DNA of 64,000 bases from Desulfuromusa kysingii (GTDB lineage Bacteria; Desulfobacterota; Desulfuromonadia; Desulfuromonadales; Geopsychrobacteraceae), in NCBI RefSeq assembly GCF_900107645.1, contig NZ_FNQN01000006.1, positions 186,001-250,000 of the forward strand. The letters are read 5' to 3'. A program made the position numbers and the translations under genes. The notes beneath the pieces were generated by a model that was given only the letters and a program-made list of their open reading frames with translations, was not told where the DNA came from and did no database searches. Positions 21,226 to 38,613 of the stretch are shown piece after piece; the stretch's first letter is position 1, and each line of letters starts with the position of its first letter.

Positions 21226-21845
21226 TGTTTTTCCTGCTGTTGGGGATCAAGCGTTCGAATGATCCAGATAATCGTAGCGATGATGAAAAACCCACTGGCT
21301 GGAAGCACCAGCATGCCGTTTCTGATATACCAACCACCATTGGTAGTAAGTTGCAGGATCTCAACGCCGAATAGCGTTCCAGATCCGAAAAGCTCGCGAA
21401 TGAAAGCGACCAGCATCAGGATCAAGCTGTAGCCTAAACCATTGCCAATACCGTCCATGAAGCTGGCTACGGGCGGGTTGCTCATAGCGAACCCTTCGGC
21501 CCGACCCATGACGATACAATTGGTGATAATCAGCCCTACAAAAATAGAGAGTTGTTTCGAGAGTTCAAAGAAAAAGGCTTTAAGAATCTCATCCACAAGA
21601 ATAACCAAAGTGGCAATAATGGTGATCTGGATGCCAATGCGTACACTGTTGGGGATCTGAAAGCGGACGATACTGATGGTCAGACTGGAAAAAGCCGTCA
21701 CCAGTGTCAAGCAAATAGACATAACCAACGCCGTCGACAGTTGCCCCGTGACTGCCAAGGCCGAGCAAATGCCGAGGACCAATAAAGCGATAGGGTTCCG
21801 TTTCAGTATTGAATTTGTCAGCAGTTCTCTATTTGTCTCAGCCAT
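21222..21845 (-). CDS. nqrD: Na+-translocating NADH:quinone reductase subunit D
   Basis: A 207-residue polytopic subunit, partner of NqrE in binding the intramembrane Fe centre. The conserved blocks [20 protein letters not shown] and [18 protein letters not shown] each hold the ligand Cys. Homologous to RnfE but embedded in a six-gene nqr order. It overlaps nqrC by 8 bases upstream and nqrE by 4 downstream, so subunit synthesis is tightly coupled. Confidence 0.96.
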
Positions 21846-22617
21846 CGATCCTTCCTCCCTTGTCTCTTAGCCGGGTCAGAAATGGTTTAAAACCGAGCTC
21901 GCCAAACCAGAAGGAGATGATATTATCAACGCCTTGGGTAGTGAGGGTCGCTCCCGACAAGCCGTCCACATGATAGATCATTTCAACCTGATCTTTTTTC
22001 TGATTGACGTGGAGGGCTTCTTCATTGGATTGATTGTAGATTTTTTTACCTTGCCAGCCCGATTGCCAGCGGCGGTTTTCTATTTCTCCGCCAAGCCCTG
22101 GCGTTTCACCGTGTTCGTAAAAGGAAATCCCGCTGACAGTGCTCATATCGCCCTCAATGGCTATATAGCCGTAGAGAGTGGACCAAAGGCCCTTCCCCCT
22201 TACAGGCAGGATGACTTGCCGCACAGTGTTATCATCCATGACGAGATAGACACGGGAGTATCTCTCCAGCCGCCGAATTCCGACAATATCTTCTGCCTTT
22301 GAAAGCGACTGGCCTAACTCCTCACTCATGGCAGCCTTGAGCTGATCAAATCCTTCTGGGGAAACGGTTGTAGCAGAAACGAAATCGCCGCTTTTTAGAT
22401 CAATAATCCTCGTCTCTATATTGCCGAAGAGATCTTCTACGCTTTTGGTGCTGTCGTAGAGCCCTGCAGCGACCAGAATATTCATTCTTCGATCCTGTAA
22501 CTTGTTTTTTTCCTGTAATGGGCGTAAGCCCACTGCCGCTCCACCGACGAGAATTGAGCAGAAAAAGGCCAAAACCAGGACCGAATAAAAAGGCTTATAA
22601 GCAGTTATGTCAGCCAT
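21838..22617 (-). CDS. nqrC: Na+-translocating NADH:quinone reductase subunit C
   Basis: A 259-residue subunit when started at ATG 22617 ([10 protein letters not shown]), which overlaps nqrB by 8 bases; the longer frame reaching 22689 lies inside nqrB and adds no homology. It has one N-terminal helix and a periplasmic FMN-binding domain. The flavinylation motif DGLSGATLT is intact, with Thr226 the expected covalent FMN site. Attachment needs an ApbE flavin transferase, which is not encoded in this window. Confidence 0.96.
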
Positions 22618-23824
22618 GACGCAGCTTTCTCCTCTTGACGTTGGCCTGGATGACAAAATAGTCAAACAGCGGAGCGAAGACGTTTCCAAGTAGAATTGCC
22701 AGCATCACGCCCTCTGGATATGCTGGATTCGCAACTCGGATAAGAATGGCGAGCACACCGATGAGAAGGCCGTACATCCACTGCCCCTGCGGTGTGTGAG
22801 CCGCGGAAACCGGGTCGGTAGCCATAAAGACCAGACCGAAGGCAAAGCCGCCAAGGACCAGGTGATAATGGACTGGTATGCCGTTAAATGGATTTGCCGG
22901 ATCAGCCAGAAAAAAGAACAGCAGACTGGAGATCACGCCGCCGATCAGCATGGAGGTCATTATCCGCCAGGAAGCGATGCCAGTAACAAGCAGAAGTAGC
23001 GCGCCAAAGAGACAGGCGAGCACCGAAGTTTCTCCCATTGATCCGGGGATAGTGCCAATAAATGCCTGAGCCCAGGTGAAATCGACATTTTGCATGGCTT
23101 GACTCGCTGAAACGGCTTCACTGATCTGAGCCAGAGGAGTCGCAGAGGTAAAACCGTCAACGGCAACCCATACCTCATTCCCTGACATCTGGGCGGGGTA
23201 CGCGAAATAGATAAAGGCCCGAGCGACGAGTGCGGGGTTCATGAAATTTAAGCCGACGCCACCAAACGCTTCCTTGGCAAAGACAACGCCAAAGCTGATC
23301 CCCACCGCGGCCTGCCATAGCGGTATCGTCGGTGGCAAGGTCAAAGTAAAAAGCAAGCTGGTGACGAGAAAAGCCTCTGATATTTCATGACCCCGGATAA
23401 GGTTGAACAGGCCCTCCCAAATGCTGCCAACGACCAAAACGACAAGATAGATAGGGAGAAAGTAGAGAGCGCCGTGGACAAAGTTGGCAATAAAGCTCTC
23501 AGGTGAACAGCCGATAATGCTCATAATTTCCCCCCTCCATCCGGATGGAGAGGTGATGTTCAGAGACTGGAGGGCGAGGTTCGTCTGATAGCCGGTGTTC
23601 CACATGGCCATAAAAGTACAGGGGATAAGAGCAATGATCACGATGATCATAATGCGCTTGAAATCAATGGCGTCACGGACATGAGGTGCCGTGTCTGTTG
23701 TTCCGCTCGCCCCGAACAAAAATGAGTCGGTAGCTTCAAAGAGCGGGTAAAGCTTTTCCAGTTTGCCATCTTTGCGGAATAACGGTTCTATTTTTTGAAA
23801 GAAACGATCGAGTATTTTCATCAT
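22610..23824 (-). CDS. nqrB: Na+-translocating NADH:quinone reductase subunit B
   Basis: The largest membrane subunit, 404 residues with about ten helices. It forms part of the Na+ path and binds riboflavin and a covalent FMN. The flavinylation motif is DGFTSATPLAQ with Thr229 as the acceptor; Ser-Ala-Thr replaces the commoner Ser-Gly-Ala-Thr but keeps the acceptor. The start and the nqrA stop share one base (TAATG). NqrA follows the NQR pattern of binding quinone on the cytosolic face of this subunit. Confidence 0.96.
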   Translation of the reverse strand: MMKILDRFFQKIEPLFRKDGKLEKLYPLFEATDSFLFGASGTTDTAPHVRDAIDFKRIMIIVIIALIPCTFMAMWNTGYQTNLALQSLNITSPSGWRGEIMSIIGCSPESFIANFVHGALYFLPIYLVVLVVGSIWEGLFNLIRGHEISEAFLVTSLLFTLTLPPTIPLWQAAVGISFGVVFAKEAFGGVGLNFMNPALVARAFIYFAYPAQMSGNEVWVAVDGFTSATPLAQISEAVSASQAMQNVDFTWAQAFIGTIPGSMGETSVLACLFGALLLLVTGIASWRIMTSMLIGGVISSLLFFFLADPANPFNGIPVHYHLVLGGFAFGLVFMATDPVSAAHTPQGQWMYGLLIGVLAILIRVANPAYPEGVMLAILLGNVFAPLFDYFVIQANVKRRKLRHG

Positions 23825-25173
23825 TAGCCCTCCAGCTCTATTTCTGTGAGGACCCGACGTAACATGGGGCCGAATTCGCTTTTCCCTGGGCAGACAAAGG
23901 AAAGCAAGGCTAAATCTTCTTCGATCAGTTCCAAGGCACCAAGATTGCGCGCCTTTTCAGTGTCACCCACGGCTATGCTTTTCAAAATGGCGAGTGGAAT
24001 AATGTCAAGCGGCATGACTTTGTCATAACTGTCCACAGGAAAAATGACTCGTTTGCCACCCCAGAGGGCCGTGTTCATGGCAAATTTACGTGCTTTATGT
24101 AGTGCTGAACTGAAAACTGGAAGCATGGAAAATCGGCGTCCTCCAAGGCTTACCCAGCTGAAAAGGCCACGACTACTGCCTTCATGGAGTACCGCTATCT
24201 GGTGATGGTACCTGCCGAGATAACGGTGATAACCGTCAACCTCACGACCGTCAAGGATTGAGCCGGAGATGATTCTGACGGGTGTGGTGACAAGTTCGTC
24301 ACGGCATATCTCATCGATGTTGGCGCCAATGCGTGTTTTGATGAGTCGAGGATTTTTTACCGCCGGGCCACCAAGGGCAATAATTTTCTCTGTTAGCAGA
24401 TGGCCGGTTTGAAACAGATGGCCGATAGCGATGACATCCTGATAGTCTAAATGCCAGACGACACGGGTCTCTGAGGCTTGATCGATCATGTGAATGTGGG
24501 TGGATGGTAACCCTGCCGGGTGTGGTCCGGAAAACTGCGCAACCTCGATCCCCGGAGGTAATTGAAGATCAACACTCGAACCGGCTCTGAGACACAGATA
24601 TGTCGGCTGATCATGCATTTGGTCAAGAATAGTGAGGCCGGTGGAAAATTCCTTTTTGTAACAAGCGATGATGACATCTGGGTCAGGACTAAGGGGGCGG
24701 CTCTCCATGGCGGTGATAAATAGAGAAGCCGGTGATGATGCAAGGTCGGGCACCTTGCCGAAGGGCCGTGTCCTGAATGCGTTCCATACTCCTGACTCCT
24801 GGAGTATAGAGCGGATTTCTCCGCTTGCGTAATTTTCAGTGGATTTTTCCTGGGGGTTAAGGAAGGAGATGTAATCATCTTCTTCAATTTCAATGACCAC
24901 GGATTCAAATTTTCTTTTAGCACCGCGGTTAATTGAAAGGACTGTTCCCGTTGCCGGGGATGTATATCTGATCCCTTTGGTTTTCTTGTCGACAAAAAGA
25001 AGCTGCCCGGTCTTGACTCTCTCCCCTTCAGCGACTTCCATCGTCGGTTTCATACCGATATAGTCATCACCGCTCAACGCGACCCTGTCCACGGGTCTGG
25101 TCTCTTCTACGACCTGCCGTGGTTCGCCCGTCACCGGGACGTCAAGTCCCTTTTTGAAAGCAAATGTTTTCAT
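23824..25173 (-). CDS. nqrA: Na+-translocating NADH:quinone reductase subunit A
   Basis: First gene of the nqr operon, 449 residues, the family's usual length. A soluble subunit that binds ubiquinone or menaquinone next to NqrB. Recognisable blocks are the N-terminal barrel-sandwich (GMKPTMEVAEGERVKTGQLLF, then RYTSPATGTVLSINRGAKR) and the C-terminal SLGGRRFSMLPVFSSALH and CPGKSEFGPMLRRVL. All six subunit genes plus the nqrM-like gene follow on one strand with overlaps or gaps of 19 bases at most, so this is one transcription unit. It implies Na+-based respiration, fitting a marine habitat. Confidence 0.97.
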   Translation of the reverse strand: MKTFAFKKGLDVPVTGEPRQVVEETRPVDRVALSGDDYIGMKPTMEVAEGERVKTGQLLFVDKKTKGIRYTSPATGTVLSINRGAKRKFESVVIEIEEDDYISFLNPQEKSTENYASGEIRSILQESGVWNAFRTRPFGKVPDLASSPASLFITAMESRPLSPDPDVIIACYKKEFSTGLTILDQMHDQPTYLCLRAGSSVDLQLPPGIEVAQFSGPHPAGLPSTHIHMIDQASETRVVWHLDYQDVIAIGHLFQTGHLLTEKIIALGGPAVKNPRLIKTRIGANIDEICRDELVTTPVRIISGSILDGREVDGYHRYLGRYHHQIAVLHEGSSRGLFSWVSLGGRRFSMLPVFSSALHKARKFAMNTALWGGKRVIFPVDSYDKVMPLDIIPLAILKSIAVGDTEKARNLGALELIEEDLALLSFVCPGKSEFGPMLRRVLTEIELEG

Positions 25174-26280: not shown

Positions 26281-26315
26281 AAGTGAGCCCCGCCCGTTCG
26301 GGGAGAGGCTCACTT
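26281..26315 (-). terminator. Hairpin after lipoprotein gene 1
   Basis: A 9-bp outer stem (AAGTGAGCC/GGCTCACTT) with an inner GC stem. It ends the minus-strand lipoprotein array; no T-tract follows. A GAGCCC-type hairpin follows each of the first three lipoprotein genes. Confidence 0.7.
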
Positions 26316-26345
26316 GTCTGTAATGAGTTAAAAGTGATAATTCCC

Positions 26346-28076
26346 CTACTTTATGTGACTTTCAACTCTATTATAGATAAACTCTAACATTTTAGGAACT
26401 TTAAGAATCTTCAGATAGGTTTTATCATTGTCGTCTGCCACATACGAAGCACTATAATATTCATCAATCTCTGGTGCATTTGGGTATTCGACGATAGTAG
26501 GCGAATCGAATGTAACATCAGCTGTCCCTGTCGGAATCCCTTCGCTGGTAAAATCAACGATCATTGGCATTTCATCCTCTTCAGACAAAAGTGTCACCGT
26601 TTGATCATCGTTGTAAGTCAAAGAGGTTGTTTGATTGTCCGTGTCATCCTCATCAGTTTCTACGGATACAAGTTGCCCACTATCGTCATAGGTAAAGGTA
26701 TTGCTCTGTCTGAAAGTCTCACTGCCATCTTCGAAGTTAACTTCTACTGTTTTTGTTAAAATTCCGTCCGAGTAGGTCACTATATTTGTTTCCGTACGTG
26801 TCGATGAAAGCTCTCCCCCAGGATAATCCTTTTCTTCATGGGTGTAGACCGTCAGGTAGCCGGCGTCATTGTATGAATATTCGTCACTCCAATATTGAGA
26901 GGTTCCTTCAAAAACACCGTCGTTGTCAGCATCCAAGAGATTTTCGTAGCTGTGCATAGCGAGATTGCCACTATCTGCATATGTATAGCTGTTGATGTCT
27001 CCATAATGTGAGGACAGTGTTTCGTTAATAGGATCTGGATAGGAGTATTGCTCTGTGGATGACATGGTCAATAAACCCTGTTCATTGTATTCCCAAGCCT
27101 GGTAATAGTGCCTCAAATAGTCAATTGTTTCGTCATTATCGTTGCTATAAGAATATGTTTCTGAGTCAGTGAGCAGACGACCAGCACTGTCATAGATATA
27201 GGTATGGAGACTAAATGTGTCGTACCCTTCAACGTTGTCATAAACATCAGTTGATGTCTTTTTAGAGATGAGTTGTTTTTTATCATTGTAGGTGAAATCA
27301 ATCTGATAGATATCTTCGTCACTTTTATCAACAATAGTCTGCATTTTTAAGCCATCAGCGTAACTATGGGTGTAGCTGTCTTCCTTTGTTACATCTCCAT
27401 CAGCAGTCACGATGTGAGAGATCAGGTTTCCATAGCTGTCATACTCGAAGGTGTGGACTGTGGTAGAACTGGTGTCGTCAATTTCGGTATGAATAAAACT
27501 GGTGATATCTTCGGCACTATTGTAGGTGAAGGTGTAAGTATCGGTTGTAATCCCATCGTTCACCTCGGTCTGCTTCAAAGGCAGGCCGGAAGGAGTATAA
27601 CTGTAATGGGATTCTTCTTGAATACTGGGTGTTGTGTCCATGACACCCGTTTCTTCGTCGGAATAATACCACTCTTGAATTAAGGAGGTGATTGCGCCAA
27701 AATTGCTGCTTAAAGCTGACTCTTGAGCAACCGGTGCCAAGTTGTTGTCATACAATATGGATGTTCCCGTAATTGCTGGATCGTATGTGTAGCTTTGGAC
27801 GAAGCGTGTATCAGGAACAGGGTCGCCATCGTTATCAGCATAGCTGGTTTCTTCGATTACTTGACCAATAACCTGCATCGCCGAATTGTATTCAAAGCTC
27901 TGAATGTATGTGTCCCCTTTTGTTGTTGTGGTTGCTATGCTATCGGCCCCATAAGGATATTGTGATGCTGTTATTTCGTGGTTTGAACTACTCCCACCAC
28001 ACCCTGATAAGACCAGTGGTAGCAGAATAAGCATTACCAGAAAATAGCTGTAGTGGCTGTAACATCGTTGTTTCAT
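26346..28076 (-). CDS. YD-repeat-like surface lipoprotein, paralogue 1 (576 aa)
   Basis: A lipoprotein: signal peptide with lipobox LSGC (Cys26), then GGSSSNHE and YPYGADSI shared with three paralogues downstream of it in the array. Much of the chain is a run of ~20-25-residue units built on Y-x-Y-(D/N)-x2-G-x-L, such as YIYDSAGRLLTDSETY and YNEQGLLTMSS, resembling the YD repeats of Rhs proteins. Acidic loops such as DADNDGVFE look like Ca2+-binding loops. The C-terminus (LTYNDDQTVTLL, DFTSEGIPTGTAD) is conserved. AAGGAG precedes ATG 28076. No toxin or enzyme domain is seen; a surface beta structure is likely. Confidence 0.85.
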   Translation of the reverse strand: MKQRCYSHYSYFLVMLILLPLVLSGCGGSSSNHEITASQYPYGADSIATTTTKGDTYIQSFEYNSAMQVIGQVIEETSYADNDGDPVPDTRFVQSYTYDPAITGTSILYDNNLAPVAQESALSSNFGAITSLIQEWYYSDEETGVMDTTPSIQEESHYSYTPSGLPLKQTEVNDGITTDTYTFTYNSAEDITSFIHTEIDDTSSTTVHTFEYDSYGNLISHIVTADGDVTKEDSYTHSYADGLKMQTIVDKSDEDIYQIDFTYNDKKQLISKKTSTDVYDNVEGYDTFSLHTYIYDSAGRLLTDSETYSYSNDNDETIDYLRHYYQAWEYNEQGLLTMSSTEQYSYPDPINETLSSHYGDINSYTYADSGNLAMHSYENLLDADNDGVFEGTSQYWSDEYSYNDAGYLTVYTHEEKDYPGGELSSTRTETNIVTYSDGILTKTVEVNFEDGSETFRQSNTFTYDDSGQLVSVETDEDDTDNQTTSLTYNDDQTVTLLSEEDEMPMIVDFTSEGIPTGTADVTFDSPTIVEYPNAPEIDEYYSASYVADDNDKTYLKILKVPKMLEFIYNRVESHIK

Positions 28077-28440
28077 TAGACGTTCTCCTTATGATTCGTG
28101 TGGTTGAATGAATGGTCATATTTGCGTACGATTCTGATGGGATATAATTTCGAAGCATGACCTTATTCTTGTAGCAACAAGCCAACAAGATTTGCGGCAT
28201 CCTAGGCTTAAGGAGAATTAATGTCAATATATTTATGTGATTTTTATGAATTAAAACAGTTGGTTAACTAGAGCTTTAGAAATTTGTCTACGAGGTTCAT
28301 CTATGAAAGTCTTTTAAAATCTGTCATCTGAAGGAAAAATCGTTGGTGAATGTTGATGTTAAGATTCAAACTTACGATCCTATTACTATATAAGTGCTCT
28401 GGATGAGTGAAAGACTTGAGGTATTCGCAGATACCAAAAG
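28077..28440. other. Intergenic region between lipoprotein genes 1 and 2
   Basis: About 360 AT-rich bases with no gene I can support. Its length and the hairpin at the end of the upstream gene suggest that each lipoprotein gene has its own promoter, but I cannot place one. Confidence 0.5.
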
Positions 28441-28470
28441 TGAGCCCCCCCCTTTCAGGGAGGGATTCCC
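28441..28470 (-). terminator. Imperfect hairpin after lipoprotein gene 2
   Basis: A C8 run pairs imperfectly with GGGAGGG just after the stop codon. It is equivalent in position to the hairpins after paralogues 1 and 3. Confidence 0.45.
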
Positions 28471-28472
28471 TT

Positions 28473-30221
28473 CTAGATTCGATATCTTGGTATGTTAAAT
28501 ATCGCTTTATCGACAATCTCTAACATTTTGGGAGATTTAATACCCCACAGGTAGCTTTTATCGTTGTCATCGGTTTTATCTTCAAATTCAGACTCAGCTC
28601 CATCAATCTCAGGTGAATTGGGGTATTTAACTAAAATAGCTTCATCATCATCAAATGCCAGATCTACGGTTCCTATTGGAAACCCTGCACTAGTAAAATC
28701 AACGGTTATTTTTATTCCTAATGCTTCGTTATTAATCGTTACAGTTTGATCATCGTTGTACGTTAAAACGGATTCCTCCTCACCCTCCGTATCAGCCCCA
28801 TATGTATATTCCGTTGCGAGTTTGATGATCTGTCCATGATCGTCATAAGTAAATAATGCAGTAGTTCTGCTGTCCTCAGCTTCATAATCAGAACCGATTG
28901 TTGACAGTTCAAAATTAACAGTTGATAGTTCTGTAAGAACACCATCAGTATAAGTGATAAAATTTGTTTTACGTTCCGTATCTAAAAGAACGTTCTCTTC
29001 ATATTCGTTTTTATTATAGTCTGAGATTGTTAGGTAGCCGTCGTCATTATAATAGTTATCATCTCTCTCAATTGTCTGTGGACTATTTTCATCAAAATCT
29101 TCAAAATCCTCAAATTCGTACTTTTGATAGAGATGCATGCTGATATTGCCACTGTCGGCATATGCATAAGTGTTGATGTATTTATGATAAGTAAATTGGT
29201 AGCGATTGTCCCAAGATTCTTTAACATAACCAACGATTAAACCGTCCAGATCGTATTCCCAGGTTTTTTCAATTTTCACTTCAATGTCGTTTTCGGCTGT
29301 TTTTTCATAGAAATCAGTGAGCATCTCACCTGTAGAGTCGTCATAGGTATAGGTATGAGTTTTAAAGGTGTCATACGCACCATCATTATCAGTGTCTATT
29401 GATGTTGTTTTGGCAATTATTTGTTCTTGATCATTGTAGGTGAAATCAATCTGATAGAGATCTTCGTCACTTTCATCAACAATAGTCTGTATTTTTAAGC
29501 CATTAATGTAACTATGGGTGTAGTTGTCTACCACCGTTACCTCTCCATCAACGGTGATGGTGTGAGAGATCAGGTTTTCGTAGCTGTCATACTCGTAGGT
29601 TTCGATTGTGGTAGAGCTGGTGCCGTCAGATGCTGTTTCGATATGAGTATAACTGGTGACATCCTCGGCGCTATTGTAAGTGTAAGCATCGATTGTAACT
29701 CCATCGTTCACTTCGGTCCGCTTCAAAGGTAGACCTGAATCGGTGTAACTGTAATAGTATTCGCGTTGATAACTCGGGGTTGTAGCGAGGACACCTGTTT
29801 CTTCGTCAAATTCATCATACTCCTCATAAATCGATGAGGTGATAGCGCCAAAATCACTGCTTGAATCTGATACTTGAGCAATCTCATCGGACAAGGAAGT
29901 TTCTGATATTGATGGATCGTATGTGTTCCTTGTGATGGTGCGTGATCTCATGATAGGGTCGCCATCGTTATCATCATATTCGGTTTCTTCAATGGTCTCA
30001 CCAACAACCTGCATCGCCGAATTGTATTCAAAACTTTGATCGTATCTGTATGTGAAGCCGTCTTCAGTTTTCACGGTTGATATACTATCGGCTCCATAGG
30101 GATATTGTGTGGCTGTCACTTCATGGTTTGAACTACTCCCACCACAGGCTGACAAGATCAGAGGTAGCAGAATGAGGATGGTAAGAAAATAGCAGTAGTG
30201 GCTGTAGCTTCTTTGTTTCAT
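28473..30221 (-). CDS. YD-repeat-like surface lipoprotein, paralogue 2 (582 aa)
   Basis: Signal peptide and lipobox LSAC (Cys26) are nearly identical to paralogues 1 and 3. The repeat region holds YDSYENLISHTITVDGEVT, YTYDDSTGEMLTDFYEK and Ca2+-loop-like DTDNDGAYD. The C-terminal module (YNDDQTVTI, DFTSAGFPIGTVDLAF, YPNSPEID) is shared by all four. The middle differs from its neighbours in sequence and repeat number while the ends are conserved, as expected from duplication followed by exchange or diversifying selection. AAGGAG lies 8 bases before ATG 30221. Function unknown. Confidence 0.85.
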   Translation of the reverse strand: MKQRSYSHYCYFLTILILLPLILSACGGSSSNHEVTATQYPYGADSISTVKTEDGFTYRYDQSFEYNSAMQVVGETIEETEYDDNDGDPIMRSRTITRNTYDPSISETSLSDEIAQVSDSSSDFGAITSSIYEEYDEFDEETGVLATTPSYQREYYYSYTDSGLPLKRTEVNDGVTIDAYTYNSAEDVTSYTHIETASDGTSSTTIETYEYDSYENLISHTITVDGEVTVVDNYTHSYINGLKIQTIVDESDEDLYQIDFTYNDQEQIIAKTTSIDTDNDGAYDTFKTHTYTYDDSTGEMLTDFYEKTAENDIEVKIEKTWEYDLDGLIVGYVKESWDNRYQFTYHKYINTYAYADSGNISMHLYQKYEFEDFEDFDENSPQTIERDDNYYNDDGYLTISDYNKNEYEENVLLDTERKTNFITYTDGVLTELSTVNFELSTIGSDYEAEDSRTTALFTYDDHGQIIKLATEYTYGADTEGEEESVLTYNDDQTVTINNEALGIKITVDFTSAGFPIGTVDLAFDDDEAILVKYPNSPEIDGAESEFEDKTDDNDKSYLWGIKSPKMLEIVDKAIFNIPRYRI

Positions 30222-30314
30222 AGAATATTCTCCTTGTGTTGAAGTGGTTGGGTAAGTGGTCAGCTTATATCATTAATAAATGTTAAAAACAGAGAATAGT
30301 CCACTGCAATTGCT

Positions 30315-30346
30315 AAAGAGCCCCACCCTTCAAGGCAGGGCTCAAT
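30315..30346 (-). terminator. Terminator-like hairpin after lipoprotein gene 3
   Basis: GAGCCC/GGGCTC outer stem with a partly paired GC-rich interior; three T follow on the minus strand. Corresponds to the GAGCCC hairpins of the two other array members. Confidence 0.6.
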
Positions 30347-30356
30347 TTAAATAGCA

Positions 30357-31997
30357 TTATGGCTCTTTAATTATCTTGAGATTTCTGTTGCGGGCAATAA
30401 ATTCATATAATTTAGGGGATTGAACCCTCATTGAATAGGTTTTATCATTGATATCTGCTTCAGGCATATCTTCATTTATATCAGTTAAATTAGGGTATTT
30501 AATGACTAATGCATCATATAACCAGTCTGCTGTACCCGTCGGAATACCTTCACTGGTAAAATCAATAATCGTTGTTTGATACTCTTCTTCATTTCTTTGA
30601 AACAAGATTGTGACTGTTTGATTATCGTTGTAGGTCAATGATGATACCTCATAGAATTCGACATCATCAAATGCCACTTCCGAAGCTATTTGAACAAGAC
30701 GCCCATCATCGTCATAGGCATAAAAAAAGCTATAAACGTTATACTCTTTGATTGCGGAAATACTCATTACATTTTCAGTAAGAATGCCATCCGTATAGGT
30801 CAAAGTATGATTTATTGACTCCAAAGACTCCAAATTGCCATCTGAATTCATTTCGGACGTCAATTTTGTAAGGTACCCCGCATCATTGTAGAGAAAGTCA
30901 GTGCTCTCAGCGAAACGGAGTTCTTCAAAAATGTCCCCATCAAGATCTGTATCAACACGCTCTTCATAGTTGTACATGGCGATATTGCCATTATCTGCAT
31001 AGGCATAGTTGTAAATTTTTTCATCATGAGAAGTTAGAGTGCCAGTTTCTAGATCTAAGGAGAATGTTTCTGTGGTAAAGGTAATCATCAAACCCTGGTC
31101 GTTGTACACCCATTCTTGCTCCTCAACACCCAGAAAACCTTGGACGGTATGATCATCGGAATAATAAGCATCTGTAGATTTTGTTTTTAGAATTAATTGT
31201 TTTTTATCATTGTATCTGTACCCAAACTGTTCTATTTCTTCATTATTATTGTTAACTATGGTGGTAACGATCGTCTCTGTTACTAAGCCATTGTCGTCGT
31301 AAGTATGAGCATAGTTAATAGTCTTTCGATCCACTGTAGAGTCTCCCTCGAGCTTGGTATAACTGTATGATATTAAATTCCCATGGCTGTCATAACTGTA
31401 GGTTTTGGTTTTTGTATAATCATCAACCTTAGTCTCAGTATCACTGGTGATATTGTTGTCATCATCATAGGTGTAAGCATACATCTCAGTTGTTACACCG
31501 TTTTGAACAATGGTTTTATCCAACAATAAACCGAAATCCGCATAGTTATAATAGATTTCTTCTTTATCTGTCGGTGATGTTTTTAGCTCTCCAGTTGATT
31601 CGTCGAGGTCATATTGTTCACGAATATATGAGGTGACGGCACCGAAATCATTTGGTCCAGGAAATTCTCCTTCCGATATTGCTACTGCAATCGTTGGATC
31701 GTGTGTGTAGCTTTCGACGATTCGTGAATAAATAACGGGGACACTATCGGGGTTGTTATCGTAGTGGATTATTTCAAAAATTTGACCAACAACCTGCATC
31801 GCCGAATTGTATTCAAAGCTCTGCGTGTATGTGTCCCCATCCGCTGTTGTGGTGGAGATACTATCGGCCCCATAAGGATATTGTGAGGCTGTCACTTCAT
31901 GGTTTGAACTACTCCCTCCACAGGCTGACAAGACCAGAGGTAGCAGAATGAGGATGGTAAGAAAATAGCAGTAGTGGCTGTAAACTTTTTGTTTCAT
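30357..31997 (-). CDS. YD-repeat-like surface lipoprotein, paralogue 3 (546 aa)
   Basis: I start at ATG 31997 (MKQKVYSHYCYF) with AAGGGG upstream; the longer frame adds a non-signal extension. Lipobox LSAC puts lipid on Cys26. Repeat units include YTYDDDNNITSDTETKV, YSYDSHGNLISYSYTKL and YAYDDDGRLVQIASEV, with the acidic loop DTDLDGDIFEE. It has the shared C-terminal module DFTSEGIPTGTADW. It follows the omptin 3' fragment on the same strand, mirroring the order of the intact omptin and paralogue 4, so [omptin-lipoprotein] appears to be the duplicated unit. Confidence 0.85.
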   Translation of the reverse strand: MKQKVYSHYCYFLTILILLPLVLSACGGSSSNHEVTASQYPYGADSISTTTADGDTYTQSFEYNSAMQVVGQIFEIIHYDNNPDSVPVIYSRIVESYTHDPTIAVAISEGEFPGPNDFGAVTSYIREQYDLDESTGELKTSPTDKEEIYYNYADFGLLLDKTIVQNGVTTEMYAYTYDDDNNITSDTETKVDDYTKTKTYSYDSHGNLISYSYTKLEGDSTVDRKTINYAHTYDDNGLVTETIVTTIVNNNNEEIEQFGYRYNDKKQLILKTKSTDAYYSDDHTVQGFLGVEEQEWVYNDQGLMITFTTETFSLDLETGTLTSHDEKIYNYAYADNGNIAMYNYEERVDTDLDGDIFEELRFAESTDFLYNDAGYLTKLTSEMNSDGNLESLESINHTLTYTDGILTENVMSISAIKEYNVYSFFYAYDDDGRLVQIASEVAFDDVEFYEVSSLTYNDNQTVTILFQRNEEEYQTTIIDFTSEGIPTGTADWLYDALVIKYPNLTDINEDMPEADINDKTYSMRVQSPKLYEFIARNRNLKIIKEP

Positions 31998-32258
31998 TGA
32001 ATATTCCCCTTGTGTTGAAGTGTTTGAGGGGGGGGGCATGTTTGTCTATAAACCGCAAGCGGTATAGGTTGAAAGCATGGCCTTGATGTTGTGACAATAC
32101 CCCCTCAATGTTAGCAACAATTTATGATTTGGTAAGATTAATGTCAATAAATTTATATCGTTATTATGAATTGATGCTATTGATTTAGATAAACACTTTG
32201 ATTGCAACGATAAAGTTTGTTTGGGGATAGATGTATTGAATAAGAGAAAGATCAGCAG

Positions 32259-32284
32259 CCCTAGATGAAAAACATCAAGGGCAT
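32259..32284 (-). terminator. Hairpin after the omptin fragment
   Basis: GCCCT-A-GATG pairs with CATC-A-AGGGC around a five-A loop, just downstream of the truncated omptin copy. Confidence 0.4.
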
Positions 32285-32291
32285 ATGGCTA

Positions 32292-32517
32292 TCAGCAAGA
32301 GAAACCTAGCATCAGGTATGAACGCAATTGGTGGCTGAGGACTTCATGGTCAATAGTGTGAGCATAGACACCGGAGAAATAGGCTTTAGATTCCCCTTTT
32401 GATTCGATTCTTATGGATTCAATCTCTGCTTGTAAATACCAATGATGATAAAATGAATAACGCAGGTTCAGGCGGGCCATCAGTGCATTACCGTTCCAGC
32501 CATGATCGGCATTGTCC
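32292..32517 (-). pseudogene. 3' fragment of an omptin-like gene (second copy)
   Basis: The last ~72 codons of an omptin homologue. From WNGNALMARLNLRYSFYHHW to the stop it is almost identical to residues 257-324 of the intact gene at 35453, over about 220 bases. It lacks both catalytic pairs and the signal peptide. The last residues changed from GYSF to GFSC, losing the C-terminal aromatic residue that outer-membrane assembly needs. Its upstream end stops abruptly at 32511, where an IS256-type sequence begins; the bases GCCGATC are shared by both partners at the junction, pointing to a microhomology deletion. Confidence 0.88.
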
Positions 32518-33088
32518 ATTTCTTTGAGATATTCTGCAATGCCAAGTACAGCAGCTGGATCATTGATTCATCATTGGGGAACGAGCCCCGATTCTTCGTC
32601 ACCTTTCGCAGCGATATATTGACCGACTCAATAGCGTTGGTGGTGTAGATCGCTTTGCGAATATCTGGTGGATAGGAAAACAGTGGCGTTATCCGTTCCC
32701 AGTTGTTCCGCCAAGACTTACTGATGGTCGGTTGACTTCCGTTCCACTTTTCCTCAAACACTTCGGGATTATATACACAAGCGACAAAAATATCTTTCAC
32801 ACCACGGTTCTTCAGCTCAGTCACAACCTGATGCCAGAACTTGGCTCCTTCGGTCTCAGCGGTCCATATCCCGAGAACTTCTTTAAGCCCGTCCATGTTG
32901 ACACCAACCGCCTTATTGTTCGAGGGAGCGTTCTTCTCATAGCCAAGATGATCGGTTATCTCGGCCTGCATGGCTCGCTCCAGCAGTTGCTTGGTCAGTT
33001 GTTTCAGCAGCCCGGTTTCCCCGATGAGATCTTCAGGATTCTTGTAATCCTTCATCAGGGTATCGAGCAAATCTTTGGGTATGGTCAT
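32505..33088 (-). pseudogene. IS256-family transposase with two in-frame internal deletions
   Basis: The N-terminus (MTIPKDLLDTLMKDYKNPED, LTKQLLERAMQAEITDHLGYEKN) and the C-terminal blocks (PTISKSWRNNWERITPLFSYPPDIRKAIYTTNAIES in parts) are clear IS256/mutator transposase. From memory of the family, about 85 residues are missing after NNKA and about 50 after FVACV, which removes the first DDE Asp and the DGLKGF region with the second. Both losses keep the frame. The C-terminus after KKWTMPI is replaced by omptin-fragment sequence. The protein cannot be catalytic. Confidence 0.88.
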
Positions 33089-33153
33089 CAGTGCCTCCAG
33101 TGGTTACAGTTTGTAACCGACTGAGACCATTTACACAAAGTTTTTTACACCCT
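32505..33153 (-). mobile_element. IS256-family remnant
   Basis: The 5' half of the element is present up to a probable terminal repeat near 33120-33153 (on the minus strand GAGGGTGTAAAAAACTTTG). The 3' end and its inverted repeat are gone, replaced by the omptin 3' fragment. I cannot see target-site duplications. The insertion plus deletion explains loss of the second omptin copy. Confidence 0.75.
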
Positions 33154-33282
33154 CTCGGACGAAAGTTTACCAGAACTGTTCATCTTTTACAGAACTTTTT
33201 AAAAGAACCTTTTAAGCATCAAAAAGAGGGAGGTTGGATGTCAAGATTTACAAAGCTATTTGAATGTCTCGTTATTGCAAAC

Positions 33283-33314
33283 AAAAAACCCCTCCAATAC
33301 TGGAGGGGTTTTTT
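33283..33314. terminator. Bidirectional intrinsic terminator
   Basis: AAAAAACCCCTCC and GGAGGGGTTTTTT pair perfectly over 13 bp with a 6-base loop. It ends the minus-strand lipoprotein gene 4 and also works on the plus strand. Confidence 0.9.
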
Positions 33315-33339
33315 ACCGCATTCGTTTTAAAATCGCTAC

Positions 33340-35136
33340 TTAATCATCCATCATTTCCGTATAAATGAAACTAAACATTTTTGGGATTTTAAAAGTTAAT
33401 GGATAGCTCTTATCATTTGAGTCAGCACTGCTAACCCCATTATAATAAGAATCAAGTTCTGGGGAATTTGGATAACGGATGACAAATGTATCAATTATTA
33501 AGTCTGTGGTCCCTGTAGGCATCCCTTCCGTTGTGAAATCAACAATCTTTGTCTGTTGTGAGTCTTCATCATTCTCAGATAAAAGGGTAACCGTCTGGTC
33601 ATCGTTGTAAGTTAAGGTGATCGTTTCAGTAGCTGTATAATCTCCATCGACGACATTGTTTTCATAGAGGCTAAGTTGTCCATCATCGTTAAGGGTTAAA
33701 TTGGTGTTAGAGTTATAATTTGGGCTCCCATCTTCAGAACGAACTGTTTCTATCTGTGTTAATATTCCATCTGTATAGGTGAGCGTTTTTGTAGACGTAT
33801 CGGTGTTAGTAATTACGCCATCGTCATAATACACTGTTGTTTCGATGAGGGATACCAGGTACCCATCTGTATTATAATAGTACTCATGAGTCCTTCCCGA
33901 ATTAATACCCTCAAAATCACCATCGAGATTAGAATCTAATAGATTTGAATAGCTATTCATGGCGATATTGCCATTTTCTGTATATTGATAGCTGTAGCTG
34001 TCTTTATTATGTCCAGACATTATTTTTTCGACAGGATCTAAATAGTAAATTTCTTCTTCAGAAGAAGCGGTCATCACCCCCTGCTCATTGTATTCCCAGA
34101 CATCGTTGAGGTGACGCAGATAGTTAATGACATGATTACCACTGCTGTCGTACGAAAATTCTTCTGAATCCGTGAGGAGACGACCAGCACTGTCATAGGT
34201 ATAGGTATTGGTTCTGAATGTATCATACTCATCATCGTCAGAATAATTGTTCCATGATTCTGTTTTTGAAGTTAACTGTTCTTGGGTATTGTAAGTGTAA
34301 TTGAATTGATAAGTGTGTTCATTACTTTCACCCACGTTCTCAGTAACGATCGTCTGCATCAGAAGGTCACCGGTGTAGCTGTTTTCGTAGCTGGTGATGT
34401 GTTCCTCTGCGGCTTCATCGGTACCATCTCCATCGGAATCGCCTTCTCTTGTATAAGTTGATAAAATAAGATTGCCATGACTGTCATATTCATTTGTTGT
34501 AATGCCGGAAAAAGTGGTACCGGCCGATGCAGGGTTAATCAGAGTATAGCTATTGCGGGTGAGCTTTTCGTCATTATTGTAAGTGTAGGTGTAGGTTCGG
34601 CTGGTAATCTCATCGCCATTATGTACAACTTCGGTCCGTTCTAACAACACACCAGAAGCTGTATAGCTGTAATAATTTTCTGTTTGATCTGATGGGGTTG
34701 TCTCGAGAACACCTGTATCTGCATCGATTTCATAATAAGAATAAATATCTGAGGTAATTGCGCCAAAAATAGAGTTAGTGAGGGCAACTTGAGCAACCGG
34801 CATCAGATTAGTTTGTATACTCGATGCTGTAATGGATGGATCATAGGTGTAACTTTGAACGTAGCGCTGATCAATGACAGGATCGCCATCATTGTCATCA
34901 TAGTAAGTATTTTCTTTTGTATAAGCAACAACTTGCATTGCTTCATTGTACCCGAAGGATTCATTGACCGTGTCATTAGTATCTGAGTGCGTAGTTGAAA
35001 TTCCATCAGCACCATAAGGGTATGCTAATGCTGTCACTTCATGGTTTGAACTACTGTCACTGCAGGCTGATAAACCCATGGTGAGTGCTGTTAATATGAG
35101 TATTACCAGAAAATCTCGAGCGCGAATGTATTTCAT
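33340..35136 (-). CDS. YD-repeat-like surface lipoprotein, paralogue 4 (598 aa)
   Basis: Started at ATG 35136 (MKYIRARDFLVILIL), with a strong GGGAGGG 7 bases upstream. The lipobox is LSAC (Cys25) and the mature N-terminus SDSSSNHEVTALAYPYGAD aligns with the other three, although the signal sequence differs. Repeat units include YTYDSAGRLLTDSEEF and YDSHGNLILSTYTREG. The loop DSDGDGTDEAAE fits the DxDxDGxxxxxE Ca2+-loop pattern exactly. It is the most divergent copy and the one directly downstream of the intact omptin gene, so it may be the founder of the array. Confidence 0.85.
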   Translation of the reverse strand: MKYIRARDFLVILILTALTMGLSACSDSSSNHEVTALAYPYGADGISTTHSDTNDTVNESFGYNEAMQVVAYTKENTYYDDNDGDPVIDQRYVQSYTYDPSITASSIQTNLMPVAQVALTNSIFGAITSDIYSYYEIDADTGVLETTPSDQTENYYSYTASGVLLERTEVVHNGDEITSRTYTYTYNNDEKLTRNSYTLINPASAGTTFSGITTNEYDSHGNLILSTYTREGDSDGDGTDEAAEEHITSYENSYTGDLLMQTIVTENVGESNEHTYQFNYTYNTQEQLTSKTESWNNYSDDDEYDTFRTNTYTYDSAGRLLTDSEEFSYDSSGNHVINYLRHLNDVWEYNEQGVMTASSEEEIYYLDPVEKIMSGHNKDSYSYQYTENGNIAMNSYSNLLDSNLDGDFEGINSGRTHEYYYNTDGYLVSLIETTVYYDDGVITNTDTSTKTLTYTDGILTQIETVRSEDGSPNYNSNTNLTLNDDGQLSLYENNVVDGDYTATETITLTYNDDQTVTLLSENDEDSQQTKIVDFTTEGMPTGTTDLIIDTFVIRYPNSPELDSYYNGVSSADSNDKSYPLTFKIPKMFSFIYTEMMDD

Positions 35137-35452
35137 TGAAAACCCTCCCTGTAACTTACGTTGTTTATGTGGACAGTCATTTTTTTCAATGACCTGCAAA
35201 ATAAAAACAATTAATTGTAAATATTCAAATATAACCCACTAAGTTTCCTGAGATTATTCTCATGATTAGCCTGTGTCAATATATTTATTGTTTTTGTGGT
35301 ATTTTTCTAGAAATATTATATTTAAATATGTGGATATAAGATTATTGATGACAGTCACTAAAGAATAAAAACAGGTATGACTTTAAGTCGTTATTCGAAA
35401 GATATATGACTTCGACAGGACGCCTCTGGAGAAATCCAGAAGCGCAAACAAA
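35137..35452. other. Intergenic region between omptin and lipoprotein 4
   Basis: About 315 very AT-rich bases. A weak hairpin CTGGA/TCCAG lies at 35421-35445, just after the omptin stop. No gene is supported. The AT-rich stretch probably holds the promoter of lipoprotein 4. Confidence 0.5.
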
Positions 35453-36427
35453 TCAGAAAGAGTAACCCAACATCAGGTATGAACGCAATTGGTGGCTGAG
35501 GACTTCATGGTCAATAGTGTGATCATAGACACCGGAAAAATAGGCTTTAGATTCCCCTTTTGATTCGATTCTTATGGATTCAATCTCTGCTTGTAAATAC
35601 CAATGATGATAAAATGAATAACGCAGGTTCAGACGGGCCATCAGTGCATTACCGTTCCAGCCATGATCGGCAATATTTACTTTACTTCTCAATAGGTGTT
35701 GGTCTTCATCCTGAAATGCCATATAGGGTGCATAAGCAACGTTCAATTCCAGTGCGAATTTATCTTGCACTGCTAACTCCATCCCCAACTCCAAATAAGG
35801 GATCTGATATTCAGCCTCATAAGTCATGACCAGGCCATCAACGTAAGAATGTGGCTTTGCTGGTGAAGAAGGATATGATTGCTCAAGGTCATAAACATCA
35901 AAATCATATTTCTGGTATTTATAACCGATGCCAACATGGTACAAAAATTTAAGTCCAGGGTTCAATTTCTCCACAGATAAAGCAGTCTGTCCATAGTAAC
36001 CCTGATAGAATTGGTAAGTTAATTTCCCCTCCACGGCGACCATACTCATGTCGCTGTTACTCTCGGAATAGATATCCAGGGAGTTGCTCGGAGAATAATC
36101 CCATACGCCCCAGTCTGAATCTTCCATCTGACCGTCCCCATCAGTCAGGTTGGTTTCAACATGAAACATTGCCCCCCATTTTTCAAACAAATTCAGACCA
36201 AGCTGCCCTTTGATAACATAGGCATCAAGTGGAAAACGGAGTTCACTGACGGGAAAATGGAGCTCATCGGTACTACCATCGGCACCAATGTAATCACCAC
36301 CGATTTGATATTGCGTGGTTCCTGACAAATAGCCACCGCCGAGTGAGACATCCACCGCCGCCCAAACGGAAGCTGCACCAAAAACAACCAAACTACAGAC
36401 AACAACAAATAGATATATCGGGCGCAT
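35453..36427 (-). CDS. Omptin-like outer-membrane aspartate/histidine protease
   Basis: Start ATG 36427 (MRPIYLFVVV) with AAGGGGAG upstream; 324 residues with a signal peptide ending near ASVWA. The mature part alternates amphipathic beta-strands and ends in LGYSF, typical of a barrel. By eye it follows the omptin plan: SELRFPLDAYVIKG aligns with the OmpT N-terminal strand, DSDW (Asp103, Asp105) matches OmpT Asp83/Asp85, and DQH (Asp242, His244) matches Asp210/His212. Both catalytic pairs are therefore present. Omptins cleave between basic residues and need LPS. Neighbouring lipoproteins are possible partners or substrates, which is inference. Confidence 0.75.
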   Translation of the reverse strand: MRPIYLFVVVCSLVVFGAASVWAAVDVSLGGGYLSGTTQYQIGGDYIGADGSTDELHFPVSELRFPLDAYVIKGQLGLNLFEKWGAMFHVETNLTDGDGQMEDSDWGVWDYSPSNSLDIYSESNSDMSMVAVEGKLTYQFYQGYYGQTALSVEKLNPGLKFLYHVGIGYKYQKYDFDVYDLEQSYPSSPAKPHSYVDGLVMTYEAEYQIPYLELGMELAVQDKFALELNVAYAPYMAFQDEDQHLLRSKVNIADHGWNGNALMARLNLRYSFYHHWYLQAEIESIRIESKGESKAYFSGVYDHTIDHEVLSHQLRSYLMLGYSF

Positions 36428-36593: not shown

Positions 36594-37166
36594 TTAGTGT
36601 TTTTGTCCAATAATGAGGAAATGTTTTTTCATCTCGTCGAAGATTTTAATGTCGAGAAAGCCAGCTGTCGTGAGCTGTTGTTCAATATCTTGAGGATGAC
36701 ATCTGATCGTGACCGGTGGGCCATGTGGCATCTCTTCCTTTTTCCAGTCGATGATAAATATCTCACCGCCTGGTTTTAAGAGTCGGTAAGCCTCCTTAAT
36801 AACCAAGCCTTGATCTTCCAACTCGTGGTGGAGGTTGATCATTAAGACCAGATGAGCGATTTCATCAGCCAAGGGCACAGCAGATTCATCACTTTGTACC
36901 GGAATGATATGTGGATGGTTTGGACTTATATTTTCTTTCATCCAGGCGATCATTGTTGCCGACACATCACACGCATAGGTCGTTGAGGCATGTAGCTGCT
37001 GATGAAAGGCAACGCTGAAAAAAGCGGTCCCCGCACCGATCTCTACCAACACCTCCGGTTGTTGTTGTGTGAGTTGACCGCAGACATATTCGGGAGGAAT
37101 ATCCAGTAAACGGAGGGGATCATTGAGTTTCAGTAATTTTTTTGGGTTAAATTTTTTATTATCCAT
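36594..37166 (-). CDS. Class I SAM-dependent methyltransferase
   Basis: A 190-residue Rossmann-type methyltransferase: motif I VEIGAGTAFFSVAF (near residue 41), an acidic residue after beta-2 (TYACDVS), the motif II/III region LVLMINLHHEL, and LLKPGGEIFIIDWKKEE. These match small-molecule UbiE/Methyltransf_11-type enzymes. AGGA lies 7 bases before ATG 37166. It is a single gene upstream of the omptin/lipoprotein array and downstream of the DUF945 gene on the same strand; substrate unknown. Confidence 0.85.
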   Translation of the reverse strand: MDNKKFNPKKLLKLNDPLRLLDIPPEYVCGQLTQQQPEVLVEIGAGTAFFSVAFHQQLHASTTYACDVSATMIAWMKENISPNHPHIIPVQSDESAVPLADEIAHLVLMINLHHELEDQGLVIKEAYRLLKPGGEIFIIDWKKEEMPHGPPVTIRCHPQDIEQQLTTAGFLDIKIFDEMKKHFLIIGQKH

Positions 37167-37287: not shown

Positions 37288-38613
37288 TTAACGCAGCTGA
37301 AATTCTTTGCCATTGAGCAAAAGCTGGTGATCCGTTATTTCAGCTTTATGTACCAACTTCCCGCCAACCTCTTCGAATAATCCCGTTTGCATTCCAGGAA
37401 AGATTGGCGACAGCAGGTTATCCTGATTGGGGATTAAGCCAACGGGCAGCGACATATTCGAGGCGAAAGAAAACACTTCAACCAGTTTTTTCGGCTGTTG
37501 CGATAGAGAAATAAAACTGACCATTGTCATGTCTTGCTTCAGGCCGATGGATAGATCCCCGACAACGACACCTTGTGGTAAGACCAGATGTAAATTGCTG
37601 ATCTCAATCTGCAAATCTTTTTTCAGCAATTTTTCAGCTTCAGCAACTAAGCGTATCCCGGCCAAAGCCATCTCTTTCTCCATCATCTCTTTGGCCCGCT
37701 CAGGATCATTTTGAGTTGTTGCAACGTTTGCCAGTAGATCATTGATTAAGTTGGTATAGACAGCGTAGACAGCTTCAAATCCTGCAACGTCAAGTTGATT
37801 AATTCCGAAGCTGATGCGGACGTCATCAACCTTGTTATCATCGGCAACAATTTGCGCAACGCTGTACTTTGCTTGCATGGAGAGTTTATTGTTGGCCTCG
37901 TCAAAGTCGAAGGTTGATTCTCCTTTGAGTGATGAGATCGCCACCGCATCGCGATCTTCGATATTGATCTGCTCAATGGAGACAGATGAGGTGCCATCAA
38001 CAATAAGACGAGAGATCAACTTGATATTCGAATGCAACTCAATTCCCTTGATTTCAAATGCTCCCGGGACAGAGATCCCTGCAAAGGTCGCATCGGTCCG
38101 GATGTTTGCAAGGGATCGATCCGCTCTGATCACCAGTTCCCCAGGGTTGACAATCATAGAGTTGTTTTCATCGTCATGTAATTCAAGCTGTTCTAGAGCA
38201 ATAGTGGTCGTTAATCCTCTGAAAAGGCCATAACGACTCGAAATAGACAATGGATCCTCGCCATTGAGATTTTCGCGAATAAAATCGCTGTAACCGCTAT
38301 TCCGGTTCAAGTGGGTTGTGGACGTGATCCCAAAGACGCCATGTTGTGCTTTTTCGACGAGAACAATCGGGCCGACATCATCAAGGGTTTGCAAATAAGG
38401 GACGGTCATCGTCCACTCAATTTCCGAAGAGCCATAACTGCGATGATAATTTGTGATTTCGATATCGGGATAAAAAGAGTGCTCGGCATAGAGTTCATTG
38501 TATTTTTCGACCTGACTACGCAAGATATTTTCCAAGATCAGGCCGTTAACAAAAGGTGCTGAGATCGCGCAAATCACAATAATAATGAATAGTCCCAGTA
38601 GAGCTTTTTTCAT
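37288..38613 (-). CDS. DUF945 (YdgA-like) family protein
   Basis: A 441-residue protein with an N-terminal membrane anchor or signal (residues 3-26) and a long extracytoplasmic domain. The start NGLILENILRSQVEKYNELY and the YPDIEITNYHRSYGSSEIEW block are characteristic of the DUF945/YdgA family of periplasmic, inner-membrane-anchored proteins. Family function is poorly defined; links to the cell envelope have been proposed. GGGAG precedes ATG 38613. It lies just downstream of the ABC exporter operon, separated by about 110 bases. Confidence 0.8.
   Translation of the reverse strand: MKKALLGLFIIIVICAISAPFVNGLILENILRSQVEKYNELYAEHSFYPDIEITNYHRSYGSSEIEWTMTVPYLQTLDDVGPIVLVEKAQHGVFGITSTTHLNRNSGYSDFIRENLNGEDPLSISSRYGLFRGLTTTIALEQLELHDDENNSMIVNPGELVIRADRSLANIRTDATFAGISVPGAFEIKGIELHSNIKLISRLIVDGTSSVSIEQINIEDRDAVAISSLKGESTFDFDEANNKLSMQAKYSVAQIVADDNKVDDVRISFGINQLDVAGFEAVYAVYTNLINDLLANVATTQNDPERAKEMMEKEMALAGIRLVAEAEKLLKKDLQIEISNLHLVLPQGVVVGDLSIGLKQDMTMVSFISLSQQPKKLVEVFSFASNMSLPVGLIPNQDNLLSPIFPGMQTGLFEEVGGKLVHKAEITDHQLLLNGKEFQLR

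Follow-up and report, generated by a model that had tools for sequence, protein, structure and literature searches.

We analyzed a 64,000-nucleotide stretch of the Desulfuromusa kysingii genome (contig NZ_FNQN01000006.1, positions 186,001 to 250,000), hereafter called the window. Our subject is an array of four paralogous lipoprotein genes, named here lipA to lipD, which follow one another in tandem orientation on the minus strand, encode proteins of 546-598 amino acids (aa) and have an omptin-family barrel gene upstream (Table 1). Inside the array we also found a fragment of the 3' end of an omptin gene (omptin2) and the remnant of an IS256-family insertion sequence (IS), which the initial annotation, made from the letters alone, had not reported.

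Table 1. Features of the lipoprotein array and its surroundings (window coordinates; ORF, open reading frame)
Feature	Position	Strand	Description	Basis
lipA	26346-28076	-	YD-repeat lipoprotein, 576 aa	ORF, lipobox LSGC, YD motifs, predicted fold of residues 125-427
lipB	28473-30221	-	YD-repeat lipoprotein, 582 aa	ORF, lipobox LSAC, 54% identity to lipA
lipC	30357-31997	-	YD-repeat lipoprotein, 546 aa	ORF, lipobox LSAC
lipD	33340-35136	-	YD-repeat lipoprotein, 598 aa; N-terminus most divergent of the four	ORF, lipobox LSAC
Omptin gene	35453-36427	-	Omptin-family outer-membrane protease, 324 aa	Pfam PF01278; alignment with K-12 OmpT
omptin2 remnant	32291-32511	-	221 bp	Direct repeat, blastn, base-by-base comparison
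IS256-family remnant	32504-33154	-	Internally deleted, right end truncated	Pfam/NCBIfam, comparison with IS copies L118 and L119 of the same genome
Promoter-like site, lipA	28199-28227	-	TTGACA-17-TAGGAT	
Promoter-like site, lipC	32119-32147	-	TTGACA-17-TAAATT	
Promoter-like site, lipD	35251-35279	-	TTGACA-17-TAATCT	Absent from the scan list; recognized by the common -35 element and spacing
Small S-adenosylmethionine methyltransferase gene	36594-37166	-	Upstream of omptin; neighbor without a shown link	

The products of lipB, lipC and lipD are 50-54% identical to that of lipA. All four precursors carry an LSGC or LSAC lipobox with glycine or serine at position +2 (assigned by eye), and the mature chains are strongly acidic, with 97-123 aspartate and glutamate residues versus 21-33 lysine and arginine residues. 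A strict YD motif, whose definition was drawn up after the sequences had been inspected, occurs 4, 1, 3 and 2 times in LipA to LipD compared to 0.01-0.02 expected; 0, 24, 0 and 0 of 1,000 shuffles reached these counts, lipB being the weakest case. A looser version occurs 9, 8, 7 and 10 times (2.7-3.2 expected; 2, 9, 19 and 2 of 1,000 shuffles). Strict DxDxDG-like acidic loops number 2, 2, 2 and 3 compared to about 0.1 expected (8, 7, 0 and 0 of 1,000 shuffles), whereas the loose DxDxD count was clearly above chance in LipC only (418, 111, 22 and 291 of 1,000 shuffles). These features, like the lipoboxes and the catalytic residues of the neighboring omptin described below, confirm what the initial annotation had listed. 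It had also described conserved ends: the N-terminal 60-80 codons are indeed the best conserved part of the four genes, but the C-terminal module is conserved only moderately.

Known family profiles gave faint matches. Pfam RHS_repeat stayed below its cut-off (best for LipC, 20.2 versus 22 bits, E 8e-4), and NCBIfam YD_repeat_2x (TIGR01643) scored 15.8 bits for LipA at a cut-off of 15.8, 12.2 for LipB and 13.8 for LipC, LipD being unlisted. The DUF4595 profile (PF15283) matched LipA below its cut-off (E 3e-6, 27.8 versus 34.2 bits) and had no match in LipB, LipC or LipD, and UPF0257 matched LipB only, again below the cut-off (E 0.0029, 17.8 versus 25 bits). The DUF4595 and YD_repeat_2x matches of LipA and the RHS_repeat match of LipC agree weakly with a YD-type sheet.

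Structure prediction for LipA residues 125-427 gave a meandering beta-sheet of 19 strands with a predicted local distance difference test score (pLDDT) of 86.1 and a predicted template modeling score (pTM) of 0.68. In a Foldseek search with this central domain, Rhs, teneurin and Tc chains took all of the top 17 rows and 19 of the top 20 (E values from 7.9e-9 to 2.6e-5); the remaining row was OspA, and the Bacteroides porin-like structures 4ghb (E 8.6e-4) and 3tzg were found among the lower rows. VIA-align superposed the domain on YenC2 (4igl) with Z 10.8 and a root-mean-square deviation (rmsd) of 5.7 Å over 229 residues at 15% identity, on TcdB1-TccC2 with Z 10.2 and 6.0 Å over 256 residues, and on 3tzg with Z 9.8 and an rmsd of 9.5 over 162. 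We read the central domain of LipA as a YD-type sheet, the fold that the initial annotation had anticipated from structure prediction, whose closure as a shell is uncertain.

Pairwise synonymous divergence (dS) among the four genes was 0.75 to 2.9. The ratio of nonsynonymous to synonymous divergence (dN/dS) was 0.18-0.47, and all four genes thus look kept by selection. No lipoprotein pair exceeded 0.47, and the dN/dS tests that the initial annotation had proposed thus gave no evidence of positive selection; in the comparison of lipA with lipB, the nonsynonymous proportion of differences exceeded the synonymous one at columns 241-300, but few changes were involved. Recombination, the other half of that proposal, is supported. 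Nucleotide identity between lipA and lipB is patchy (83-88% over columns 181-300, 53-62% beyond), and max-chi-square mosaic tests gave p values of at most 0.022 in 10 of 12 triplets with all sites and below 0.05 in 7 of 12 with third positions (uncorrected for multiple tests; 999 shuffles, minimum p 0.001). These tests use only sites at which two rows agree against the third, and their permutation ignores rate changes along the gene. The strongest signal came from lipA: on the left side of column 314 it is nearer to lipB than to lipD (0.79), on the right side it is not (0.44), a switch that was also visible on third positions. Since the array is mosaic, gene conversion is likely, and comparison of the four sequences supports diversification by duplication and recombination.

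The gene upstream of lipD passed the Pfam omptin model (PF01278, E 6.4e-12, 45.6 bits versus a cut-off of 22.6) but missed NCBIfam's narrower omptin model (12.5 versus 467); it also passed the cut-off of Pom, the Protochlamydia outer membrane protein family (26.6 versus 22.4 bits). Its residues D103, D105, D242 and H244 align with D83, D85, D210 and H212 of OmpT, in what we take to be the standard OmpT numbering, so that all four catalytic residues are kept. Identity to OmpT is 24%, with several loop insertions and deletions; the C-terminal phenylalanine is present, and a tyrosine occupies the position of OmpT Glu27, presumably a residue of the S1 pocket.

The omptin2 remnant matches the 3' end of this gene (the last 72 codons and the stop codon) at 97% over 221 bp, and the catalytic positions fall outside the copied part. 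Of the seven bases that differ, four fall in the final 22 bp (binomial P 0.0027), and the similarity stops just past the stop codon. At its other edge the remnant is fused to the IS256 remnant, with 8 bp (32504-32511) common to both. Because the IS copy L118 elsewhere in this genome has an inverted 13-bp match to its left end some 75-90 bp beyond the position of the joint, the IS256 remnant lacks its right end. The omptin2 remnant lies 294 bp before lipC, a spacing similar to the 316 bp between omptin and lipD, and a second omptin copy probably once stood upstream of lipC. In the simplest history, an omptin-lipoprotein duplication would have been followed by a later exchange between the omptin copies, an IS256 insertion and a deletion; the exchange is invoked because the omptin sequences are 97% identical whereas lipC and lipD differ at a dS of 2.9. 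Alternatively, an IS element may have copied the omptin end directly to give omptin2. No clear omptin remnant was found before lipA or lipB; the best candidate, a 23-bp nucleotide match, links the spacer upstream of lipD to the stretch before lipA (E 5e-4) and overlaps the promoter-like site. An evolutionary link between omptin and the lipoproteins is thus supported inside this genome only. The genome is rich in IS256-like stretches: the remnant region had 29 matches, including the query itself and the omptin gene, on contigs C6-C9, C11, C16, C17, C21, C23 and C26 of the assembly (G000).

With somewhat better than even confidence, we interpret the array as a local amplification of a sparse family of YD-shell lipoproteins, probably anchored in the outer membrane, to which the omptin would be a local and dispensable neighbor. 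Each lipoprotein would be exported and lipidated at the lipobox cysteine, and the glycine or serine at position +2 would direct it to the outer membrane. The mature chain is predicted to fold as a long meandering YD-type beta-sheet, its acidic loops may bind Ca2+, and it would most likely display a variable binding surface outward. The copies would have arisen by tandem duplication and been mixed by gene conversion, as the mosaic tests support, while purifying selection would hold all four frames open. The omptin would be an intact surface protease, and a second copy of it probably once preceded lipC. It would not be an obligate partner of the lipoproteins, nor is it proven to process them.

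Several observations weigh against this interpretation. The full-length LipA model, built on the four-row alignment, was weak (pLDDT 62.8, pTM 0.43), although its Foldseek list was nonetheless headed by Rhs cores. The TM-scores on the query in the Rhs-type rows were only 0.11-0.35, and in VIA-align the SAM/Tom40, VDAC and LptD barrels (Z 10-12.6, most with an rmsd of 8-13 Å) tied with or exceeded YenC2; the mitochondrial porins and Tom40 did so at an rmsd of 10-13 Å and LptD at 5-11 Å, one LptD reaching 5.2 Å over 219 residues. With barrels rivaling YenC2 in Z and with such low TM-scores, the overall shape is uncertain. A seven-row profile found nothing significant in the PDB (FlgG 0.0059, YenC2 0.091). 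Furthermore, lipD showed little mosaicism as the questioned row (all-site p 0.585, 0.198 and 0.022), and the omptin2 remnant before lipC argues for a real tie to omptin.

Relatives of the lipoproteins are rare in the genomes searched. With LipA as a query, we recovered only the four array genes in the genome itself and none outside it in 44 genomes of the family, and a four-row profile found none outside it in 395 genomes of the phylum. LipD gave matches in 3 of 136 genomes of the order, namely, its own and two (G461 and G465) from another family; since both lay outside the 44- and 395-genome samples, the lipoprotein family may be wider than seen. Neither LipA nor the four-row alignment picked up a relative in pattern scans of genome contigs, but as relatives at 28-34% identity exist, these scans speak against close copies only. 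Viral contigs yielded none, nor did plasmids (LipA query) or phages (LipD query). The relatives in G461 and G465 carry a lipobox and a similar C-terminal module, and two G461 relatives matched DUF4595 below the cut-off (E 2.9e-7 and 6.9e-7, 31.1 and 29.8 bits versus 34.2). DUF4595 itself had matches in 15 of the 395 phylum genomes, above the cut-off in 3, and the matching frames other than the array's own were 459-3999 aa long, most exceeding 1100 aa. In an unrooted tree, a 100/100 branch separated the four window copies from three G461 rows; given the missing root and a long-branch warning, this is consistent with separate amplification without proving it.

In G461, two tandem lipoprotein genes each overlap by 4 bp at their start with a preceding secreted-type ORF of 212-223 aa (L130:10268-15388). 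The same arrangement occurs once in G465, where the lipoprotein gene is interrupted by one stop codon; over both genomes the secreted-type ORFs span 212-252 aa. These overlaps, together with the duplication of the whole pair in G461, would fit an envelope-assembly or signaling module in which the upstream gene supplies a secreted partner that acts jointly with the lipoprotein, perhaps on the periplasmic side, the partner being a protein similar to STN/secretin N0 domains in the other genus and omptin in the window. By eye the partner does resemble an STN/N0 domain, and GspD chains were found at E 0.84. However, this GspD match is not significant and is outranked by a multicystatin chain (E 0.00032, no stretch passing alone), and Pfam returned noise only (E 0.12 and worse). 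Moreover, when 114 ORFs of the window were searched with the partner profile, none matched (best E 1.6). A solitary 714-aa relative present in both genomes (L131:8621-10765 and L133:4973-7117; 91% identical over 675 codons) has no partner-type ORF of at least 130 aa just upstream in G461; the G465 copy of this relative lies at a contig end. We therefore consider such a module unlikely. By eye, the 714-aa relatives adjoin a gene for an S1-type RNA-binding protein.

The two lineages nevertheless have one pattern in common. The omptin sequences are near-identical beside strongly diverged lipC and lipD, and in the duplicated G461 pair the partners differ at a dS of 0.07 (91% protein identity) and the lipoproteins at a dS of 1.0 (69%). 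We suggest, with low confidence, that a partner gene and a YD-shell lipoprotein gene duplicate as a pair, after which the partners stay near-identical and the lipoproteins drift. The partners, alike in sequence within a lineage but different between lineages, may then act as arms for recombination by which lipoprotein variants are exchanged in and out. The pattern comprises two lineages, two different partners and one duplication in each. To our knowledge, such a route to surface diversity has not been described.

The array lies in a variable spot. The lipoprotein genes have a GC content of 38-42% compared to 45% for the window, the nearby DUF945 gene (37288-38613) was without a match in all 13 other genomes of the genus that were searched (several of them incomplete), and the close relative G005, whose RnfC is 87% identical, carries different genes upstream of rnfC. 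Along with the IS256 remnant, this could mean that omptin and the expanding lipoproteins met by chance in an A+T-rich region visited by IS elements, without any functional link. Pure coincidence accounts less well for the omptin 3' copy before a second lipoprotein gene, and we regard this explanation as improbable too. The rnf genes are at 21838-25173; a second RnfC is encoded elsewhere in the genome (G000:C20, 44% identity), and copies at 87-89% identity occur in two genomes of the genus.

The initial annotation had proposed a diversifying surface system in which the omptin processes, sheds or remodels external polypeptides or the lipoproteins, in the latter case by acting on all four at the cell surface. 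The adjacency and intact catalytic residues of the omptin would allow this, as would the similar spacing of omptin2 and omptin to the lipoprotein genes that follow them. Dibasic sites are the usual omptin target. They number 2, 2, 2 and 0 in LipA to LipD, compared to 0.8-1.9 after shuffling, so that they are at chance level; none is common to all four, and LipD has none. The tyrosine at the Glu27 position also speaks against processing, as do the promoter-like sites that lipA, lipC and lipD have of their own. There is a precedent in Shigella, where the omptin IcsP cleaves the surface protein IcsA, according to one article (PMC3723647).

The search for recurrent omptin-lipoprotein pairs, which the initial annotation had set beforehand as its refuting test, found no such pair. 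Omptin matches occurred in 3 of the 44 family genomes and 36 of the 395 phylum genomes, D. kysingii being counted in both. In 37 other genomes we inspected the surroundings of omptin at 38 places (stretches of 10.5 to 19.9 kb, in some cases cut short by a contig end), and the lipoproteins were found at none of them (four-row profile best E 5.6, seven-row profile nothing to E 1); no ORF there had two strict YD motifs, while 7 fitted a simple lipobox pattern. By eye, the same-genus omptin orthologue (59% identical) adjoins a fumarase-like gene, and the omptin of G043 (45% identical) adjoins a uvrB-like gene. Conversely, neither of the two other lipoprotein genomes, G461 and G465, had an omptin match, with E. 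coli as a positive control. As omptin and the lipoproteins are apart in the relatives examined, the protease is probably no fixed partner, and we consider processing quite unlikely. The omptin itself probably belongs to the ordinary surface proteases and is linked to the array by local history. Literature listings contained nothing combining omptin with YD repeats or with Deltaproteobacteria, and nothing on tandem lipoproteins with paralogs and gene conversion. The observations of the initial annotation were thus confirmed and its interpretation was half right, in that a YD-type beta fold (overall shape uncertain) and diversification through duplication and recombination were supported but a recurrent omptin link and processing were not.

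In total, the promoter scan gave 36 sites compared to 38.2 in shuffles, i.e., no excess, and the promoter calls therefore rest on TATTGACA, which is common to lipA, lipC and lipD. The leader of lipC (31998-32040) contains, between the promoter-like site and the start codon, a run of nine cytosines that may be a slippage tract and has no counterpart in the aligned leaders of lipA, lipB and lipD. Rfam Phe_leader matches near the end of lipD were sub-threshold, occurred on both strands and were judged to be chance.

That the array is left over from, or related to, a polymorphic toxin system of the Rhs/Tc type, as the YD repeats and the best Foldseek matches to Rhs cores might suggest, is highly improbable, since the array proteins are full-length and lipidated with a conserved C-terminus and no variable toxin tip, no toxin, PAAR, VgrG or type VI secretion system (T6SS) family was above its cut-off in Pfam among 19 window proteins (an HlyD-type fusion protein, a Phage_holin_4_2 membrane protein and an Mrr_cat nuclease passed), and the sole same-strand ORF of at least 100 aa between the lipoprotein genes is the IS256 remnant; within this size limit, no immunity gene was found, as initially annotated.

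The tandem mosaic array offers a natural series for asking what lipidated YD sheets bind. The constant-partner pattern, if true, would suggest how envelope proteins are diversified, by a mechanism open to testing.

We know of no assigned role for lipidated YD sheets without a toxin. The array lipoproteins have the YxYD..G.L repeat and their best Foldseek matches in common with T6SS Rhs cores, YenC2/TccC and teneurins; unlike these shells, they are lipidated, 546-598 aa long and without a visible toxin tip. LipA has a weak profile and fold match to DUF4595 and to the Bacteroides porin-like proteins BACUNI_01323 (4ghb) and BVU_2266 (3tzg), which we take to belong to that family; compared to these solved chains (235-257 residues), the array lipoproteins are about twice as long. 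The below-cut-off match of LipB alone to UPF0257, presumably YnfC-type lipoproteins, is weak. The window omptin shares the Pfam match, the four catalytic residues and the C-terminal phenylalanine with OmpT, Pla and IcsP, but it differs from OmpT in its low identity, its loop insertions and deletions and the tyrosine at the Glu27 position. Overall, the parts of the array belong to known kinds.

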